A program made the translations under genes and the position numbers. Below, piece by piece: positions 6,101 through 63,939 of a stretch of 64,000 nucleotides of DNA. The notes beneath the pieces are model-generated. The model did not search any database, was not told the DNA's origin, and saw nothing but the letters and a program-made list of their open reading frames with translations. The stretch's first letter is position 1. Each line of letters starts with the position of its first letter. The stretch is from positions 1,054,001 to 1,118,000 of the forward strand of contig CALSQR010000001.1 of the NCBI GenBank assembly GCA_943788505.1, written 5' to 3'. This DNA is from an uncultured bacterium. Lineage in GTDB: Bacteria > Bacteroidota > Rhodothermia > Rhodothermales > UBA10348.

Positions 6101-6266
6101 CTTTGAAACGTTGGGCAATGCGTTGGTCATCGAAGCAGTAGAGAGTGATAACCGATCCACGCTATTCCGCCATGTCGCGGTTCGCTCAGGCATTTCCTAC
6201 CGCATTCGGCCCCTTTTCACGCACGCTGCCATCCGACTGCTGAAGGAACGAAACGTTGTTCACTGA
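3132..6266 (+). CDS. Large helical protein with C-terminal P-loop ATPase domain (function unknown)
   Basis: The family is not recognised. The 1044-residue product has no signal peptide or membrane helix. Residues 1 to about 690 are rich in Glu, Arg, Ala and Leu and look almost wholly helical, with a strongly amphipathic stretch near 560-640. A P-loop NTPase domain follows: Walker A at 711-718 reads GGPSSGRT with Arg717 where Lys is expected, a Walker B-like strand ICIVEHLE lies at 786-793, and a sensor-1-like strand WISTVSS comes after it. The final ~120 residues resemble a winged helix. This layout recalls AAA/STAND ATPases. Its start lies inside the upstream MscS gene (8-bp overlap), which suggests a cytoplasmic ATPase partner of the channel. 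Function is inference. Confidence 0.7.
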   Translation: MLELQQHIDMFHQAVSESGSRFANDLRTHLADPLLDAVDDILKSVQVLEAIDLNAPEGVSRDAILAVTRALQTEFLPAYGKLLSSSKGLTLLADGFKTWSTDVESASDALPEVLTRPEPEALYAASAKDSVVQRSRKSMVRMQRKLMEKDASHGQNIPLHDIGKAYSRVWLPIQFGKVIDDDRRRMAQALSSIEQHTSIVFHLALQCDYRLALRDLSDGNSTEEKPLGPILEAFSAALQSLKQVLTESPPRLRPVSMESVRERLERAWIPLETQIEQSDSFLSAIPSASSEDLAIRITRLAGNADAWEEWLQRLKVRHAYLSELLTFRFGIDELAEVQSRALSHRIGDYISEAVRTTSTRLEDVSSRTQALFSGPDSSLFDKTESGLNELSDAGTHAIQTNFVAPIQELAPVSCLSEEAVRFLEGLAALREELHPDFRMHPMQDEATDRIHPEADARVLNLRELAQKAAEELNEDRLEALTKSCRNGLRDLVEDAGELPSILSFSFQSVVEGQGSRDSEKDDGKDSGAEIALGGISRTIAAMKSIESKAGEEIDAASKAMHIEAIRAWGRLHERVRVEHQVGGYVLDVKSKLDSEARQIGRQVARQLREAKVLAERFLRRGQRQAKDLIEKGKEAVGSPSVTRASFHETAVGLAELEAVLNSVPPVYRKLFSFQPLSDPELLIGRSDGITFVKNQLEQFEMGTPQATILVGGPSSGRTSLLNVVRTTLLVDRDVRSLQLNEKVESSSEILKLFRSKLGLSLPDNCALDEAADLILDMQYGEAQPPICIVEHLEALMLRGIGGYRLLSDVLKFMSRTDTRIIWISTVSSFGWQLMSTSDPVAAALVNRFTMNELGRADLERLIMERHKKSGVPIEFVQPDDLNPLLRRRLRRVRSKEMKQELLKEAFFDRLYSQFGQNIQMALLQWVRSVEMEGDSERMQVRMTQPLNLTFFSGFQLDQVFAMKALLEHGHLSIAEYAAIDRITYSQAMSIFETLGNALVIEAVESDNRSTLFRHVAVRSGISYRIRPLFTHAAIRLLKERNVVH

Positions 6267-6280
6267 TAGTGCGTGTTTGT

Positions 6281-7237
6281 CTATGCTGGATTAGCCAGAT
6301 ACCAGTCGTAGGTTCTCTTGAGACCTTGTTTCAGATCTACTTCTGGCTTCCATCCGAGCGCAAAAAGGCGATCTACGGCGACGAGCTTGCGAGGCGTCCC
6401 GTCCGGTTTCGATGTGTCATATCTGATCTCATTATCTGCTCCAACAGTAGCAGCTACTGCGCTTGCCAGATCAGCGATCGTAAGGTCATGTCCAACGCCA
6501 ACGTTCATCAAACCATCTGGCGCCGCATCGTAAAGCAAAGATTCCGGCGTTTTGAGAACATGAAGCACCGCCGCCGCCAAATCATCGACATATAAAAACT
6601 CCCTTTTAGGAGTGCCTGTACCCCATAGGGTTACCGGCTCGCCAGTCCCCTTTGCCTCGTGAAACTTGCGCAACAAGGCCGGTAGCACGTGGCTGGAATT
6701 CAAATCGAAATTATCACCGGGCCCATACAAGTTGGTGGGCATGAGGGAAACGAAGTCCGCACCATGTTGCTTTCTCAGCGCCTCGCATAGCTTAACGCCA
6801 GCAATTTTTGCGATGGCATACCACTGATTGGTTGGCTCCAGTTGCCCGGTCAGCAATGACTCCTCCCGTAGTGGCTGAGGGGCCATTTTCGGGTAAATAC
6901 AGGTTGATCCAAGAAAAATCAGCCGCTTGACACCAATCCGAAAGGCGCCTTGAATCAAGTTTTGCTGGATCTCAAGATTCTGATACAGGAAGTCAGCGGG
7001 GTAGGAATCATTAGCCAAAATACCCCCCACCTTGGCGGCAGCGACGATGACGTGATCAGGTCGTTCCGTCTCAAGAAAGTGCCGCACTGCTTGCTGATCT
7101 TGCAAGTCCAGCTCAGCCCTGGTTCGGGTCAATATTGAGCGATGACCGGCGTCTTTGAGGGCCCGCACGATTGCTGAGCCAACGAGACCTCGGTGACCAG
7201 CCACGAAGATGCGTTCGGTTGAATCTGAAAGATGCAT
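6281..7237 (-). CDS. fcl: GDP-L-fucose synthase
   Basis: NADPH-dependent epimerase/reductase that turns GDP-4-keto-6-deoxymannose into GDP-L-fucose for surface polysaccharides. The 318-residue product is full length for the family. It shows the Rossmann motif GHRGLVGSAI near the start, the catalytic Ser in LGSTCIYP, and the YxxxK pair in NQWYAIAKIAG. It converges on the large ATPase gene with 14 bp between the stops. The partner enzyme GDP-mannose dehydratase is not in the window. A GH95 fucosidase at 26-28 kb shows the organism also handles fucose from outside. Confidence 0.93.
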   Translation of the reverse strand: MHLSDSTERIFVAGHRGLVGSAIVRALKDAGHRSILTRTRAELDLQDQQAVRHFLETERPDHVIVAAAKVGGILANDSYPADFLYQNLEIQQNLIQGAFRIGVKRLIFLGSTCIYPKMAPQPLREESLLTGQLEPTNQWYAIAKIAGVKLCEALRKQHGADFVSLMPTNLYGPGDNFDLNSSHVLPALLRKFHEAKGTGEPVTLWGTGTPKREFLYVDDLAAAVLHVLKTPESLLYDAAPDGLMNVGVGHDLTIADLASAVAATVGADNEIRYDTSKPDGTPRKLVAVDRLFALGWKPEVDLKQGLKRTYDWYLANPA

Positions 7238-7265: not shown

Positions 7266-8753
7266 TTAATTCGCCCAGCCAGGCAATAAACCTGGGACGA
7301 CCCCGAAAACCCATTGAGCCAGAAAATAGACCAGAACCGTGATAAGGATGGTGAAAAGCAGATTCATCCATATACCCGTTCGAGCCATTCTCGGAATAGA
7401 AACGAGATTGCTCCCATATACAATTGCGTTAGGTGGGGTTGCAACCGGCAACATGAAAGCAGCACTTGCAGCAATCGTAGCCGGCAGAACTAGTATAAAC
7501 GGATCCTGACCAATACCGACCGCAACAGACGCCATAACGGGTAAAAAGGCAGCGGTCGTCGCCGTGTTTGATGTCAGCTCGGTGAGGAAGATGACGAGTA
7601 TGGTCACCATCAGGACAATCAACAGAACGGGCCACTGCCCTACTCCTGAAATCAGGCCCCCAATCCATACCGCGAGCCCAGTACTATCAATGGCTGATGC
7701 CAATGAAAGCCCGCCTCCGAATAGTACCAGAATTCCCCAGGGTAAGGCACGAGCATCATTCCATTGCATCAAGAAGCGAGACTCCCACGTGGGGCCTGGT
7801 TTATGACCTGGAACAAGGAATAGAAGCAACGCCGCGAGTAGGGCTATTCCAGTGTCGGAAAGACCAGGAATGAGAGGCGAAAGAAGAGGCCGTGTAATCC
7901 AGAGAACGACAGCAAGAGAGAACACGCCAGCGACTGCTTTTTCATCTCTGGATGCCGATCCAAGCTTGTCTACCTCTTCGCTAATTAAAGCCTTCATCCC
8001 TTCAATCGGGCTATTTCCCAGCCTAAACAGGAAGCGTGTTAACAAGAACCATGTAATAGGCAGGCCAATAAGGATAATTGGAACACCAAGGCCCATCCAC
8101 TGCACGAAGCCGATCTCCACTTGGTAGGTCTCCTCCATGAAACCTGCCATCAGAGCATTCGGGACGGTTCCTATAAGGGTCCCCAGGCCGCCAATCGTGC
8201 AACTGTAGGCGATGGCCAGCATGAGAGCCGGGGCAAGATCGGGCATGTTCTCTTTACCTAGTCGATCCTGCGCCAAATGGATGATGGACAAGGCAATAGG
8301 CAGCATCATCATGGTGGTGGCCGTATTGGTCACCCACATACTCAATACCGCTCCGGCCACCATGAAGCCGCCAATAATGGACGATGGACGGGTCCCAACA
8401 CGGCAGAGTAAAAAGAGTGCTATTCGTTTGTGCAGACCTGACTTTTCCATGCCGATAGCCAACATAAAACCACCTAGAAACAGGTAAATAAGCGGATTCG
8501 CATAGGGTGCTGCTGCCTCACGAATGGAACTGATTCCAAGGATGGGAAACAGTAAAATTGGGAGCAGGGAGGTAATCGGAATGGGTAGGGCCTCGCTCAT
8601 CCACCAAATCGCCATCCACAACCCCATACCTGCTGTCAACCATGCATTGAAGCTTAAGGCGTTCGGAGGATCGGTTAAAAAGAATACTAGGAACACTAAG
8701 GGTCCTAGCACCAATCCAATACGCTCGCGCAGGTATGAGGGTGAGTCAGTCAT
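7266..8753 (-). CDS. SLC13/DASS-family sodium-coupled anion transporter
   Basis: Inner-membrane sodium symporter for di- or tricarboxylates or sulfate (DASS family). Many hydrophobic helices are present, with the two repeat-related SNT-type motifs VTNTATTMMMLP and SNTATTAAFLP that bind sodium and substrate carboxylates. The start is placed at 8753 (MTDSPSY), giving 495 residues. The open frame runs on to 8882, but that extension is Arg/Cys-rich and is just the reverse frame of the upstream gene. The ATG overlaps the stop of the decarboxylase gene by one base (TGATG), so the gene is the last member of a coupled four-gene operon and probably imports an acid that the operon uses. Confidence 0.9.
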   Translation of the reverse strand: MTDSPSYLRERIGLVLGPLVFLVFFLTDPPNALSFNAWLTAGMGLWMAIWWMSEALPIPITSLLPILLFPILGISSIREAAAPYANPLIYLFLGGFMLAIGMEKSGLHKRIALFLLCRVGTRPSSIIGGFMVAGAVLSMWVTNTATTMMMLPIALSIIHLAQDRLGKENMPDLAPALMLAIAYSCTIGGLGTLIGTVPNALMAGFMEETYQVEIGFVQWMGLGVPIILIGLPITWFLLTRFLFRLGNSPIEGMKALISEEVDKLGSASRDEKAVAGVFSLAVVLWITRPLLSPLIPGLSDTGIALLAALLLFLVPGHKPGPTWESRFLMQWNDARALPWGILVLFGGGLSLASAIDSTGLAVWIGGLISGVGQWPVLLIVLMVTILVIFLTELTSNTATTAAFLPVMASVAVGIGQDPFILVLPATIAASAAFMLPVATPPNAIVYGSNLVSIPRMARTGIWMNLLFTILITVLVYFLAQWVFGVVPGLLPGWAN

Positions 8754-34292: not shown

Positions 34293-34446
34293 GGTGTGTC
34301 ACCCAACTCGAAAATCCCCCGTGCTTTGCGAGAGAAAGTATGCTTTGAGCCTTTCCTAACAGCTACTTAACAAAGCGTTGGAAACAAGAAAGGGGTTTGG
34401 GGTACAAAGTTCCATTGCTAACTGCCAGTCATTACGAATAGAGTTC

Positions 34447-35754
34447 ATGGAAATCGAAACGCTGAAATATAAAGTCAAGGATATCTCCCTCGCCGAATGG
34501 GGACGTAAGGAAATCCGTCTTGCGGAAGCCGAGATGCCGGGTCTCATGGCCCTCAGGGAGGAATACCGAGGTCAGGAGCCATTAAAGGGAGCTCGAATCG
34601 CCGGTTGCCTCCACATGACCGTTCAGACGGCCGTACTCATCGAGACACTCATCGATCTAGGAGCTGAGGTTACTTGGTCTTCTTGCAACATCTTTTCCAC
34701 GCAGGATGAAGCTGCAGCAGCCATCGCAGCCGCTGGTATCCAGGTTTATGCCTGGAAGGGTATGAACGAAGAAGAATTCGACTGGTGTATTGAGCAGACG
34801 TTGTTCTTCGGCGACGAGCGCAAGCCACTAAATATGATCCTTGACGATGGCGGCGACTTGACCAACATGGTCCTAGATCACTATCCGGAATTCGTGCCCG
34901 GAATCAAGGGACTCTCAGAGGAAACCACAACGGGTGTGCATCGCCTGTACGAGCGCCAAAAGAATGGCACGCTTCCCATGCCTGCGATCAATGTTAACGA
35001 CTCGGTTACCAAGTCCAAGTTTGACAACAAGTACGGTTGTAAGGAATCCCTCGTGGATGCTCTACGTCGTGCCACAGATATCATGATGGCTGGCAAGGTT
35101 GCGGTCGTTGCCGGTTACGGAGACGTTGGCAAAGGCTCGGCAGCTTCGCTTCGTGGTGCTGGTGCACGTGTCATTGTAACCGAAATCGATCCGATCTGTG
35201 CCCTACAGGCCGCCATGGACGGTTTTGCTGTCAAGAAGATGGACGACGCGGTAAAGCAGGCAGACATTGTGGTAACCGCAACGGGCAACTTCAATGTGAT
35301 CACGGAGCGTCATTTCCGGTCAATGAAGGACAAAGCCATTGTGTGTAACATTGGCCACTTCGATAACGAGATCGATATGGTCTGGCTGAATACGCAGTAC
35401 GGAGATACAAAAGACACGATCAAGCCGCAGGTCGATCTATATACGATCGACGACAAGGAGATTATCATCTTGGCTGAAGGGCGCCTCGTAAACTTGGGCT
35501 GCGCTACCGGACATCCATCGTTCGTAATGTCAAACTCTTTCACCAACCAGGTACTGGCGCAGTTAGAGTTGTGGTTCAACGCAGACAAGTACGACAACGA
35601 AGTCTACACCCTTCCGAAGCACCTCGATGAGCGTGTGGCTCGTCTTCACCTTGCCAAAATCGGGGTGGAATTAGACGAACTTTCTTCGGCACAGGCTGAC
35701 TATATCGGGGTTACCCCTAACGGCCCGTACAAACCGGAATATTACCGGTACTAG
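34447..35754 (+). CDS. ahcY: Adenosylhomocysteinase
   Basis: NAD-dependent enzyme that splits S-adenosylhomocysteine into adenosine and homocysteine, keeping the methyl cycle going. The start at 34447 ([19 protein letters not shown]) is clear, since the longer frame from 34378 adds non-conserved residues. Motifs: [48 protein letters not shown], the NAD site [13 protein letters not shown], and the C-terminal KPEYYRY. Length 435 is typical. It is followed by a short direct-repeat cluster that begins in its stop codon and by a strong terminator. No SAH riboswitch was seen in the 150-bp leader. Confidence 0.97.
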
Positions 35755-35783
35755 GTAACTGGGTACTAGATACCGGGTACTAG
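35747..35783. repeat. Three GGTACTAG direct repeats at the ahcY stop codon
   Basis: GGTACTAG occurs at 35747-35754, 35762-35769 and 35776-35783, spaced 15 and 14 bp. The first copy holds the last Tyr codon and TAG stop of ahcY; the other two lie just after, before the terminator. They look like small tandem duplications of the gene end. Confidence 0.8.
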
Positions 35784-42493: not shown

Positions 42494-43138
42494 TCAAGCC
42501 AAAGCACGGCCCGACTGCCGAAAAATACCCGTGCGATTCACGTGCCCAACATATCGGCCAAGGACCCTTACCTCTTCGAATACATCCGGACGAATCAGGA
42601 TATCATCATACTCCTCATTGGCAGGCTCCAATCTCAGACCATCTCGGTCATAGAACACTTTTTTGAGGGAAGTTTCTCCATTAAAGAGAACCGCTCCAAT
42701 CCCACCATTTGGGATGTCATCGTCCATCAAGAGAACATAGTCCCCATCATTAATATCCACACCCATCATTGAATTACCTGACACCCGAATGGCAAAAATT
42801 CGATCTAATCCGGGAAATAGGGTTTCCAGTGTAATAGTCCCGAGATGCTCTTCCACGGCTTCCTGTAGCTTCCCAGCCGTGATGATTCCTCGTATCGGAA
42901 TTCCGATCGGCTCACCATCTTCTTCAACCTCTTCTGGGAAATAGAATCCATCATCCTGCCGCCTGAGAAACCCTTTCTTTTCAAGAGCCTGAAGATTCTG
43001 GGTTACGCTATTAGGGGATCGAAATCCAAACTCGTCGGAAATCTCCCGATACGTTGGCCAGTCTCCATCTCTGTCCACATAGTCCTTCAGAAAGTCCAGG
43101 AAAACTTCCTGTTTGTCAGTGAGTCCTCGGCGTGGCAT
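42494..43138 (-). CDS. lexA: LexA-family SOS repressor
   Basis: Transcription repressor of DNA-damage genes that self-cleaves with RecA. The 214-residue product has an N-terminal winged helix (PTYREISDEFGFRSPNSVTQNLQAL) and a C-terminal S24 peptidase domain. The cleavage bond is Ala88-Gly89 (GIITAGK), the catalytic Ser is Ser123 (VSGNSMM) and the Lys is probably Lys159 (GETSLKK). All catalytic parts are intact. A sigma70-like promoter and a tandem repeat lie directly upstream, toward recO. Most classical Bacteroidetes lack LexA, so its presence fits a Rhodothermota/Balneolota-like host. Confidence 0.93.
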   Translation of the reverse strand: MPRRGLTDKQEVFLDFLKDYVDRDGDWPTYREISDEFGFRSPNSVTQNLQALEKKGFLRRQDDGFYFPEEVEEDGEPIGIPIRGIITAGKLQEAVEEHLGTITLETLFPGLDRIFAIRVSGNSMMGVDINDGDYVLLMDDDIPNGGIGAVLFNGETSLKKVFYDRDGLRLEPANEEYDDILIRPDVFEEVRVLGRYVGHVNRTGIFRQSGRALA

Positions 43139-43194
43139 AGCTCTGCGTCGGTTAAGTCAAGAAATGATTGCGTCTAGAAACGGGTGCAACACAT

Positions 43195-43223
43195 ATAATA
43201 AACATATAACTAGACAAGGTCAA
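43195..43223 (-). promoter_or_regulatory. Predicted lexA promoter
   Basis: On the minus strand TTGACC (43218-43223) and TATTAT (43195-43200) are 17 bp apart, an ideal -35/-10 pair. The transcript would start near 43188, leaving a leader of about 50 bases before lexA. The -35 hexamer is part of the first unit of the GTCAAC repeat array. Confidence 0.6.
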
Positions 43224-43332
43224 CATCCAGGCAAAGTCAACAACCAGACAAGGTCAACGTTGGGAAGCGTCAACGTTGGGAAGCGTCAACGTTGGGAAGC
43301 GTCAACGTTGGGAAGCGTTAACGTTGGGAAGC
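43219..43332. repeat. Seven-unit GTCAAC tandem repeat between recO and lexA
   Basis: Five near-identical 16-bp units (GTCAACGTTGGGAAGC) run from 43253 to 43332, the last with GTTAAC. Two degenerate units beginning GTCAAC at 43219 and 43236 continue the array at a period of 17 bp toward lexA. Each of the first four perfect units holds the palindrome CAACGTTG. The last unit carries the recO stop codon, so the array seems to have grown out of the recO 3' end. The array may be a multi-site operator or just a slippage product. Confidence 0.92.
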
Positions 43333-44082
43333 AATCTGCGCAAAAACCCTGGCACTGCGTGTTGGATAGGCCTCTTCTAGATGATGCCGCAGGTATGTCA
43401 CGACCAAATCGTTCAATTCCATGGATGTGGAAGCGTCTAAATCCATGCGGAGTACATCGGATAGCTCTGCCCGAGACAACACGGCGAATGCCCTCAGAAC
43501 ACTTCTGGGAGTTCGATAAGCAGTCCATCCTTCATGACTTTGATGGTCGATGAGTCCAGAACGCAGATCCAAAATGCCGTACTCCTGATCCATTGATTTC
43601 ACGATACTGCCATCGAAGGATGGCCCAAAACCAAGAATTGTAGCCAGACGAATCTGGAAAAAAGGCCACACATTCGAAGCACGATCCGGCGTTCCATCGA
43701 GCGCAGTGAGGGACGCCGTAAGAAGACCATACACATCGGCGTTCGCCTGTCCATCTGGAAGCAACGCCCCCACCAATTCGATCATTCGAAAAGCCGATTC
43801 CATTCGATCCAACTCCATTCGCAGCGTTGGAAGATGGGCTACATGGGACGCTTCTGACAAAATCTGCAAATCTCGGCCCGGACGGCAATGGATGATTGCA
43901 GCTATTCGAGACATTGGTTCTAACGTAGAGCCAAATCGAGATTTTGCTGCCCTCGCTCCTTTGGCCATCACTCCCATCTTGCCCTCTTCCCGCGTGAAGA
44001 GTGTGACGATCCGGCTGGTCTCGCTGTAATCAATCGTACGAATGACGATGGCTTCGGTATGCAATATGCCGCTTGGGGGCAT
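43318..44082 (-). CDS. recO: DNA repair protein RecO
   Basis: RecFOR-pathway protein that loads RecA onto SSB-coated single-stranded DNA. The 254-residue product begins with the OB-fold pattern LHTEAIVIRTIDYSETSRIVTLFTREEG and GVMAKGARAAKSRFG, typical of RecO, followed by the helical domain. The stop codon is inside the last unit of the tandem repeat. It is upstream of lexA on the same strand, 179 bp apart, placing a recombination mediator and the SOS repressor together. Confidence 0.92.
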   Translation of the reverse strand: MPPSGILHTEAIVIRTIDYSETSRIVTLFTREEGKMGVMAKGARAAKSRFGSTLEPMSRIAAIIHCRPGRDLQILSEASHVAHLPTLRMELDRMESAFRMIELVGALLPDGQANADVYGLLTASLTALDGTPDRASNVWPFFQIRLATILGFGPSFDGSIVKSMDQEYGILDLRSGLIDHQSHEGWTAYRTPRSVLRAFAVLSRAELSDVLRMDLDASTSMELNDLVVTYLRHHLEEAYPTRSARVFAQIASQR

Positions 44083-61447: not shown

Positions 61448-61477
61448 TTCGTGCCGATTCTAAACCACCCCAGCTCT

Positions 61478-63850
61478 ATGACCCGGTTCCAGACCAACTT
61501 CATTGTCTCAGCATTGCTTTTGGTTGTCATTGCTGCTACATCGTCCACTGCCTTCGGCCTTCAAACCCAAGACGCGTCGGCCGTTTCCCCCCAAGACCCG
61601 CTAGCTCAGGACATTCCCCGGATCGAATCGCAGGATATTGCGGTGGATGGCTTTCTGACTGAAGATGTGTGGAATGATGCTGCCATTTTTAGCCAATTCT
61701 GGCAGTTTCTGCCCGTAGATGGTCGTCTGGCTCAAGATTCTACCCATGTGCTCGTCTGGTACTCACCCACTGCAATTCACTTTGGCATTCGAGCATGGGA
61801 AGAACACACCGAAGAAATTCGGGCTACCCTCGCGGATCGAGACAAGATTAGTGGTGACGACTACGTTCATATCGTACTCGATACGTACAATGACAAGCGA
61901 CAAGCCTTCGTAATTGGAGTCAACCCGCTCGGACAACAATCCGATGGCATATTGAGCGATCGGACAGGAGGCAGCGGATCGGGGCCCTACAACATCGATA
62001 GCAGTCCAGACTTTGTGTATGAGTCCAAGGGGCGTTTGACGGACTACGGGTATGATGTTGAGATCAGATTGCCGTTCAAAAGCATTCGGTACCAAGGCTC
62101 GTATACCCAAGACTGGGGATTCAACGTGATCCGTCGCATCCAGCACTCCGGCTACACCAGCACCTGGACGCCTTCCAAGCTCGACAATGCGTCATTTATG
62201 TCGCAAAATGGTTCGATAACCAACCTGACAGACCTTCGAAGAGGACTTGTTCTCGATATCAACCCCGAGTTTACCGGCGGGGCAAGTCGACCTGCCGGTG
62301 CCGATGCTTCTTTCAAAGAGGACTTTACTGACCCGCTAGGACTGAATGTTCGCTGGGGCATCTCCAGTAACCTGACGCTGAACGGCACATTAAATCCAGA
62401 TTTTAGTCAAGTAGAAGCTGATGTCGCGCAGATAGAATTTGACCCCCGTCGCCAAGTGTTTTTCCCAGAAAAACGCCCCTTCTTCCTTGATGGTATCGAG
62501 ATGTTTTCGTCTCCCACCAACTTGGTGTATACGCGAAGAATAGCTAATCCGCTTAGCGCTGCCAAGGTGACCGGCAAGACGGGCAGCACGAATGTGGCCT
62601 TCCTGTCGGCGGTGGACAACAAGGAGCTACATTTGAGTGACCTAGACGCACGCTATTTTAACGCCGTCCGTGTCCGCCGGGACTTGTCCGGTCAGAATAC
62701 GATTGGACTGGTCTATACGGACAAGGTCGATGGCAATCACTGGAACCGCGTCGCAGCGGTGGACGGTCGAATGACGTTCTCGGATATCTACTCCGTGACG
62801 TGGCAAACTGGAATGAGCTTTACTGCGGATGAAGGCTCTACAATTAGCGCGCCCATGTGGAATATGAGCGCCTTGGCATCAGGCCGAAAATGGGGCGGCT
62901 CCTTCAGTTCTACTGGATTCCACACCGACTTTAATTCAGAATCAGGGTTTATCCAGCGAACAGGAGTCGTTCACATCAACATGTCCCCTACCAGACGTTG
63001 GTTTGGGGCTGAGGGTCGTTTTGTTGAGTCGTACAGCCTGGGCATCTCTCTCGATGGCACCTGGGATTATGATCGCTTTACAAATGGAAATGGCCCTAAC
63101 GATCGTAAAATCCATTTCAATTCCAATTACAACTTCCGGGGTGGATGGTCTGGACTCACGTCTGTTTTCTACGAGTCATTTCTGATGCCAACCGGCCTGT
63201 ACGACAATTACGTGTTGGAAAATCCAGCCCAACCAGGGACGTACATCGGATATGAAGGCGTTGATCGGCTCATCAATCTTGGGTTCTGGTCCCGATTGGC
63301 AACACCCAGACTCAACAACTTTTCTGCGTCGCTCTTTGTGGTTGCCGGACTCGATGACAACTTCTACGAGTGGGCACGAGCAGACATCTACTTCTACACC
63401 CTGACGCTGAACTACCATCCGACGGATCAGCTGCGGGTCAACTTGCTCTATAATTATCAGCATTATATCCGTCATTCCGACAAAAGCACAGTGGCTCTTC
63501 GCCGCGTCCCGAGGCTCAAGGTCGAATACCAGCTCTCCCCTTCCCTTTTCGTGCGCCTCGTAGGGCAGTACAATTCGATGTTTGTCGACGAGCTTCGTGA
63601 CGACTCCCGAACAGATCAACCCATTCTGATTCGTAATCCATCAACGGGTGAACTCAGTCCCACCAGTAAACGCAGGACAAACAACCTCTCGGTCGATTGG
63701 CTGCTTTCCTATCGCCCCACGCCAGGCACTGTCCTCTTCTTGGGATATGGCAATTCATCCAGAGAACCGGATACGTTCCGTTTCCGCGATCTTCAGCGCC
63801 TGAATGATGGCCTCTTCTTTAAGCTGAGCTACCTGTTCAGGGTGAAGTAA
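61478..63850 (+). CDS. DUF5916-domain protein (paralog)
   Basis: Second DUF5916 protein, 790 residues from the ATG at 61478 (MTRFQTNFIVSALLLVV); the GTG at 61451 adds only nine residues. It has the same layout: signal peptide, CBM9-like domain (IAVDGFLTEDVWNDA, IHFGIRAWEEHTEE), DUF5916 core (NGTLNPDFSQVEADVAQIEFD, FFPEKRPFFLDGIEMF) and beta-strands ending LSYLFRVK. It is diverged from its neighbour, so the duplication is old. Separate transcription is likely given the terminator in between. Confidence 0.87.
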   Translation: MTRFQTNFIVSALLLVVIAATSSTAFGLQTQDASAVSPQDPLAQDIPRIESQDIAVDGFLTEDVWNDAAIFSQFWQFLPVDGRLAQDSTHVLVWYSPTAIHFGIRAWEEHTEEIRATLADRDKISGDDYVHIVLDTYNDKRQAFVIGVNPLGQQSDGILSDRTGGSGSGPYNIDSSPDFVYESKGRLTDYGYDVEIRLPFKSIRYQGSYTQDWGFNVIRRIQHSGYTSTWTPSKLDNASFMSQNGSITNLTDLRRGLVLDINPEFTGGASRPAGADASFKEDFTDPLGLNVRWGISSNLTLNGTLNPDFSQVEADVAQIEFDPRRQVFFPEKRPFFLDGIEMFSSPTNLVYTRRIANPLSAAKVTGKTGSTNVAFLSAVDNKELHLSDLDARYFNAVRVRRDLSGQNTIGLVYTDKVDGNHWNRVAAVDGRMTFSDIYSVTWQTGMSFTADEGSTISAPMWNMSALASGRKWGGSFSSTGFHTDFNSESGFIQRTGVVHINMSPTRRWFGAEGRFVESYSLGISLDGTWDYDRFTNGNGPNDRKIHFNSNYNFRGGWSGLTSVFYESFLMPTGLYDNYVLENPAQPGTYIGYEGVDRLINLGFWSRLATPRLNNFSASLFVVAGLDDNFYEWARADIYFYTLTLNYHPTDQLRVNLLYNYQHYIRHSDKSTVALRRVPRLKVEYQLSPSLFVRLVGQYNSMFVDELRDDSRTDQPILIRNPSTGELSPTSKRRTNNLSVDWLLSYRPTPGTVLFLGYGNSSREPDTFRFRDLQRLNDGLFFKLSYLFRVK

Positions 63851-63867: not shown

Positions 63868-63919
63868 GCGCACCATAGCGCACCATAGCGCACCATGGCG
63901 TCTACCAATGCGCACCATA
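63868..63919. repeat. Short GCGCACCATA repeats after the second DUF5916 gene
   Basis: Three contiguous 10-bp copies at 63868-63897 (the last ending G) and a fourth at 63910-63919. They lie in the gap between the DUF5916 stop and the partial gene at the window end. Confidence 0.85.
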
Positions 63920-63939
63920 GCGTTGGGCTCACCGGCAGA

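Follow-up and report, generated by a model that had tools for sequence, protein, structure and literature searches.

The gap between recO and lexA in an uncultured Rhodothermales bacterium carries two fused tandem arrays, which we read, with a probability of about three in four, as a species-specific minisatellite that probably has no operator role and leaves lexA controlled as it is in the organism's relatives. The arrays lie in the 64,000-nucleotide stretch of DNA that was analyzed (here called the window), and both flanking genes are on the minus strand. The recO gene (43318 to 44082) scores 114.9 bits against TIGR00613 (cutoff, 48.7) and contains the Pfam domains RecO_N and RecO_C. The lexA gene (42494 to 43138) encodes a protein of 214 aa with the Pfam domains LexA_DNA_bind (PF01726; 65 bits) and Peptidase_S24 (PF00717; 61.7 bits), which falls just under the cutoff of the TIGR00498 equivalog model (109.9 bits against 110.95).

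On the plus strand, GTCAAC starts at 43219, 43236, 43253, 43269, 43285, and 43301 and is followed by GTTAAC at 43317, giving spacings of 17, 17, 16, 16, 16, and 16 bp. TRF resolves this region into an array of three 17-bp units at 43208 to 43258 (GTTGACCTTGTCTAGTT type on the minus strand; 3.0 copies, score 74) and an array of five 16-bp units at 43253 to 43332 (GCTTCCCAACGTTGAC on the minus strand; 5.0 copies, 98% matches, score 153). An earlier note on this DNA had described seven GTCAAC units, five at 16 bp and two at 17 bp. The number of seven stands, with six exact units and one GTTAAC, but since the GTCAAC at 43253 to 43258 is common to both TRF arrays, the 17-bp units are three and not two. 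Four of the five 16-bp units are identical, and the recO-proximal one has a single substitution; the 17-bp units vary in 4 of their 17 columns (2, 4, 7, and 11), and GTTGAC (GTCAAC on the plus strand) is invariant among them. The recO-lexA gap of the window contains seven TTGAC words, of which six belong to the array. TRF scored no higher than 58 when the window was dinucleotide shuffled 30 times and no higher than 41 when only the array was shuffled 200 times, and the array is confirmed as a true head-to-tail tandem repeat, beyond chance.

The array extends from the 3' end of recO to the lexA promoter, as the earlier note had stated, with the recO stop in the unit at one end and the -35 hexamer of lexA in the unit at the other. 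The stop codon of recO, a TAA on the minus strand (43318 to 43320), lies inside the lexA-distal unit, and the first 15 coding-strand bases of this 16-bp unit are the last 15 bases of recO, stop included. The first copy thus retains the coding end, so that RecO is unaltered by the additional copies. At the opposite end, the predicted sigma-70-type promoter of lexA (43195 to 43223, minus strand) consists of a -35 hexamer TTGACC (43223 to 43218), a 17-bp spacer, and a -10 hexamer TATTAT (43200 to 43195). This pairing, which agrees with the claim that the unit nearest lexA contains the -35 hexamer, is the sole promoter-like site within 43100 to 43400 (0.1 expected), and no terminator-like site was found.

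The likely LexA operator of lexA is a different sequence, which adjoins the array and lies outside it. The LexA motif of the Balneolaeota is given in PMC7739468 as the direct repeat TTACACATATTTTWTACATA, and predicted promoters were tested there by gel shift. At 43187 to 43206 (plus strand), overlapping the -10 hexamer, the predicted box CAACACATATAATAAACATA matches this motif at 15 of 20 positions, against 9 of 20 at best within the array (43208 to 43340). The exact direct repeat ACATATAA N3 ACATATAA, with an 11-bp distance between its copies, spans 43191 to 43209, and 0.12 such repeats would be expected by chance with up to three mismatches. Shuffles of the organism's own lexA upstream region attain a best score of 15 (mean, 11.4), so that the motif match at lexA is by itself weak; over 50 lexA loci, the mean best score is 13.7, compared with 11.0 in shuffles, although several divergent rows exceed the shuffles only slightly or not at all.

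Related elements recur at other SOS genes, where the best scores are 13/20 at recA and 16/20 at an imuB-like gene (IMS Pfam domain, 27.8 bits; cutoff, 23.2), whose box-like upstream element overlaps a TTGACA. The score of 13 at recA falls in the range of some shuffles, and the recA box is backed by the conservation of a GTGTCACATATATTRCACA-type element ahead of recA in each of the six genus genomes that gave a recA match. A search of the whole genome with the longer pattern TATATGTNTNNTATATGTG and up to two mismatches found the lexA site alone (reversed control, 2). The shorter pattern TGTNTANTATATGTG, adopted after that search and allowed one mismatch, found four places (reversed control, 1), namely, lexA, recA, the imuB-like gene, and one that a mechanical ORF list assigns to the inside of a long ORF. 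As in the Balneolaeota described in PMC7739468, the box at lexA is accompanied by related elements at recA and at a Y-family polymerase-like gene; the host here belongs instead to the Rhodothermales, and the box is predicted from sequence. In the recA leaders of five of six genus genomes (L081, L083, L084, L085, and L086), a TCAAC N4-5 GTTGA inverted repeat, one arm of which is imperfect in L081, stands between the LexA-box-like element and recA and could be a hairpin or the site of a second regulator.

These results bear on the proposal of the earlier note that the array is an iterated operator, in which LexA or another dimeric regulator would bind the palindrome CAACGTTG. Although this word is a perfect 8-bp palindrome and occurs four times in the array, we consider such a role highly improbable and reject the array as an iterated LexA operator. 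The unit is unlike the LexA box of the lineage and does not recur at the SOS promoters of recA and the imuB-like gene: CAACGTTG is absent from the 300 bp upstream of the organism's own recA and from 340 bp around the start of the imuB-like gene, upstream of which there is one stray GTCAAC that is not part of a CAACGTTG. Genome-wide, CAACGTTG occurs 57 times, including the 4 in the array, against 34 occurrences of the reversed word. Furthermore, steps of 16 and 17 bp rotate each unit away from the helix face of the one before it, a poor fit to a stacked operator, and the array is not conserved among relatives. Given that the likely LexA site is a different, adjoining sequence, the repeat is most likely of the ordinary kind, not a new control element.

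The comparison with relatives drew on 59 genomes, and the region upstream of lexA was examined in 50 of them; the other nine were left out for having no match (G013), a partial match (G026), or a weak, split, or divergent lexA (G028, G037, G042, G045, G046, G052, and G056). Loci L038 to L055 were left out of the counts, those compared being the same records as the G genomes. The array was found in 0 of the 50 relatives examined, including 0 of 6 genus siblings, and a search for the unit pattern matched one of seven genus genomes, the organism's own. At 42 of 50 loci (own included), recO lies directly upstream of lexA on the same strand; the exceptions are L030, with recO on the other strand, and L009, L036, L065, and L072 to L075, with no recO match directly upstream, and the recO tail of L026 as read looks wrong. 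The recO-lexA gaps of relatives contain at most two TTGAC words each, against seven in that of the window, and a TRF score of at least 50 is reached in 4 of 42 gaps (the window, L011, L013, and L027). In L027, from an order-level relative (G047), the array is independent and unrelated, with a 13-bp unit repeated 3.1 times from -13 to +26 of the recO stop. Two observations concern lexA itself: three genomes of one order-level genus have two adjacent same-strand lexA-like genes (G029:C28, G043:C59, and G053:C39), a possible regulator duplication, and the lexA of L227 (G006:C140), at a contig end, has an early in-frame TAG, which would reflect either a mistake in the draft assembly or a disrupted gene copy.

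The promoter itself is shared. In each of the six genus siblings, TTGCNN-17-TATTAT or TACTAT lines up with the TTGACC-17-TATTAT of the window, and among more distant relatives TTGAC is frequent at -35, with no array present. We propose that the 17-bp units are older, diverged copies of the native lexA -35 hexamer and the first part of the spacer and that the 16-bp units arose recently as copies of the final 15 bases of recO and one further base. Both would have been copied by slippage, and the two arrays would then have met, joined at their common word GTTGAC. The sequence TTGACCTTGTC, with which two of the three 17-bp units begin, also opens the lexA promoter region in L025 and L071, two distant relatives, as would follow from the 17-mers being copies of the -35 region. 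Since the siblings have TTGC and not TTGAC at -35, the native TTGACC ancestor is deduced from the more distant relatives only. The earlier view that the array grew from the recO stop thus suits only the 16-bp units, the 17-bp units resembling copies of the lexA -35, and both origins are conjectural. Downstream of the array, LexA would bind its box over the -10 hexamer and spacer and repress its own gene until RecA triggers self-cleavage; the array, upstream of this switch, would at most supply a better -35 hexamer. A better or preserved -35 is possible and is the sole functional effect at which the sequence hints; the array would otherwise be neutral.

The setting of the array in its own genome is in keeping with a minisatellite. 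With up to two mismatches, the 16-bp unit is found at the five array places and at two others, compared with 3 for the reversed control; a genome-wide repeat family was rejected, the unit being not above control level outside the array. Noncoding arrays with periods of up to 30 number 29 in 1.264 Mb of the organism's genome, where such arrays are thus ordinary, against 19 in 1.518 Mb from relatives. Several findings count against this reading, besides the TTGC of the siblings at -35: no other noncoding array listed for this genome has a TRF score as high as 153; GTCAAC is retained in all units while the remainder differs, the lone variant GTTAAC being conservative; and the array RNA is predicted to fold more stably than its shuffled versions (z, -2.84 and -2.13).

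Arrays that contain a stop codon were also counted, with ORFs called mechanically (at least 90 aa, longest first). Among noncoding arrays with periods of up to 30, they make up 7 of 12 in the 464 kb sampled first, of which the window is part (1.30 expected), 2 of 8 (0.69 expected) and 1 of 9 (0.92 expected) in two later samples, and 3 of 17 in the held-out total (1.52 expected; P = 0.19). The pooled count, 10 of 29 against 2.82 (P = 0.00012), includes the sample that prompted the idea, and the pooled count for relatives is 3 of 19 against 2.47. Stop-codon-spanning arrays are not claimed as a genome-wide class, the excess not having been replicated in the held-out sequence. Elsewhere in the window, a 14-bp array of 2.9 copies (35743 to 35783) crosses the stop of an ORF (34378 to 35754) that looks by sequence like an adenosylhomocysteinase gene, and a GCGCACCATA array (63868 to 63923) begins 18 bases past the stop of a large ORF (61451 to 63850). 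In L166, from the order-level relative G036, two 14-bp arrays (6253 to 6299 and 7792 to 7824) have heptamer-like units containing CGTTGA, and one of them includes a stop codon.

Could the array nevertheless act in cis on lexA? Through its units, lexA may have gained or retained a -35 close to the consensus (TTGACC), along with spare -35-like hexamers upstream, and its transcription may so have risen; copy number or sequence drift would then tune the SOS set point. Of the six bases of the -35 hexamer, five are consensus here, compared with three in every one of the six siblings at an equal 17-bp spacing, and the array contains six TTGAC words; only one of these words, however, has a -10 at the correct distance, and other relatives have TTGAC at -35 and no array, so that we judge such tuning unlikely. 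A more far-reaching version, in which growth of the -35-bearing units serves as a mutable rheostat, slippage raised by DNA damage and repair stress shifting lexA promoter strength and the SOS response tuning its own set point, strikes us as very unlikely.

The folding of the array RNA raises the idea of an RNA element, to which we give little credence. Within the recO mRNA, the array would fold into one 8-bp hairpin after another, each CAACGUUG pairing with the adjacent one, and would shield the recO 3' end or hinder read-through into lexA. Its minimum free energy of -34.7, compared with a shuffle mean of -26.08 (z, -2.84), is matched by 1 of 200 shuffles, but any tandem self-complementary word folds likewise, and the absence of a terminator-like site and of conservation argues against such an element. 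Least credible of all is a cluster of methylation sites influencing lexA transcription. GTYRAC, which we take to be a HincII-type site, is present in all seven units, the variant included; however, the window has 57 such sites, with 7 of them in the array, and the organism's genome gave no match to the HincII endonuclease family in a search whose control also gave none anywhere.

We therefore return to the minisatellite, a type of locus with precedents in other bacteria. Bacterial minisatellites and VNTR loci include intergenic arrays touching gene ends, e.g., the MIRU of Mycobacterium. The present array shares with them short head-to-tail units, near-identical young copies, lineage specificity, and a position at a gene end; it differs in that its units would derive partly from the -35 region of a promoter and in that it is known from one genome. 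A limited literature search found no tandem array at a recO-lexA junction. The TAACTGA direct repeats of marine Beggiatoaceae (PMC4679880) are likewise intergenic and were proposed to be regulatory, but there one word occurs at many loci, whereas the unit here is confined to one.

If the array is a minisatellite only, its lesson is one of caution, in that an eye-catching array of palindromes can adjoin a master regulator and yet be lineage specific, the likely operator being an unremarkable direct repeat next to it. Were it true that the array sets the strength of the lexA promoter, it would represent a mutable control over mutation itself. Probably, a lineage-specific minisatellite here adjoins an otherwise conserved, LexA-controlled promoter, and the more useful by-product of the analysis is that, in a Rhodothermales genus, the predicted LexA box and the sigma-70-type promoter of lexA are consistently arranged, and recA and the imuB-like gene have related elements.
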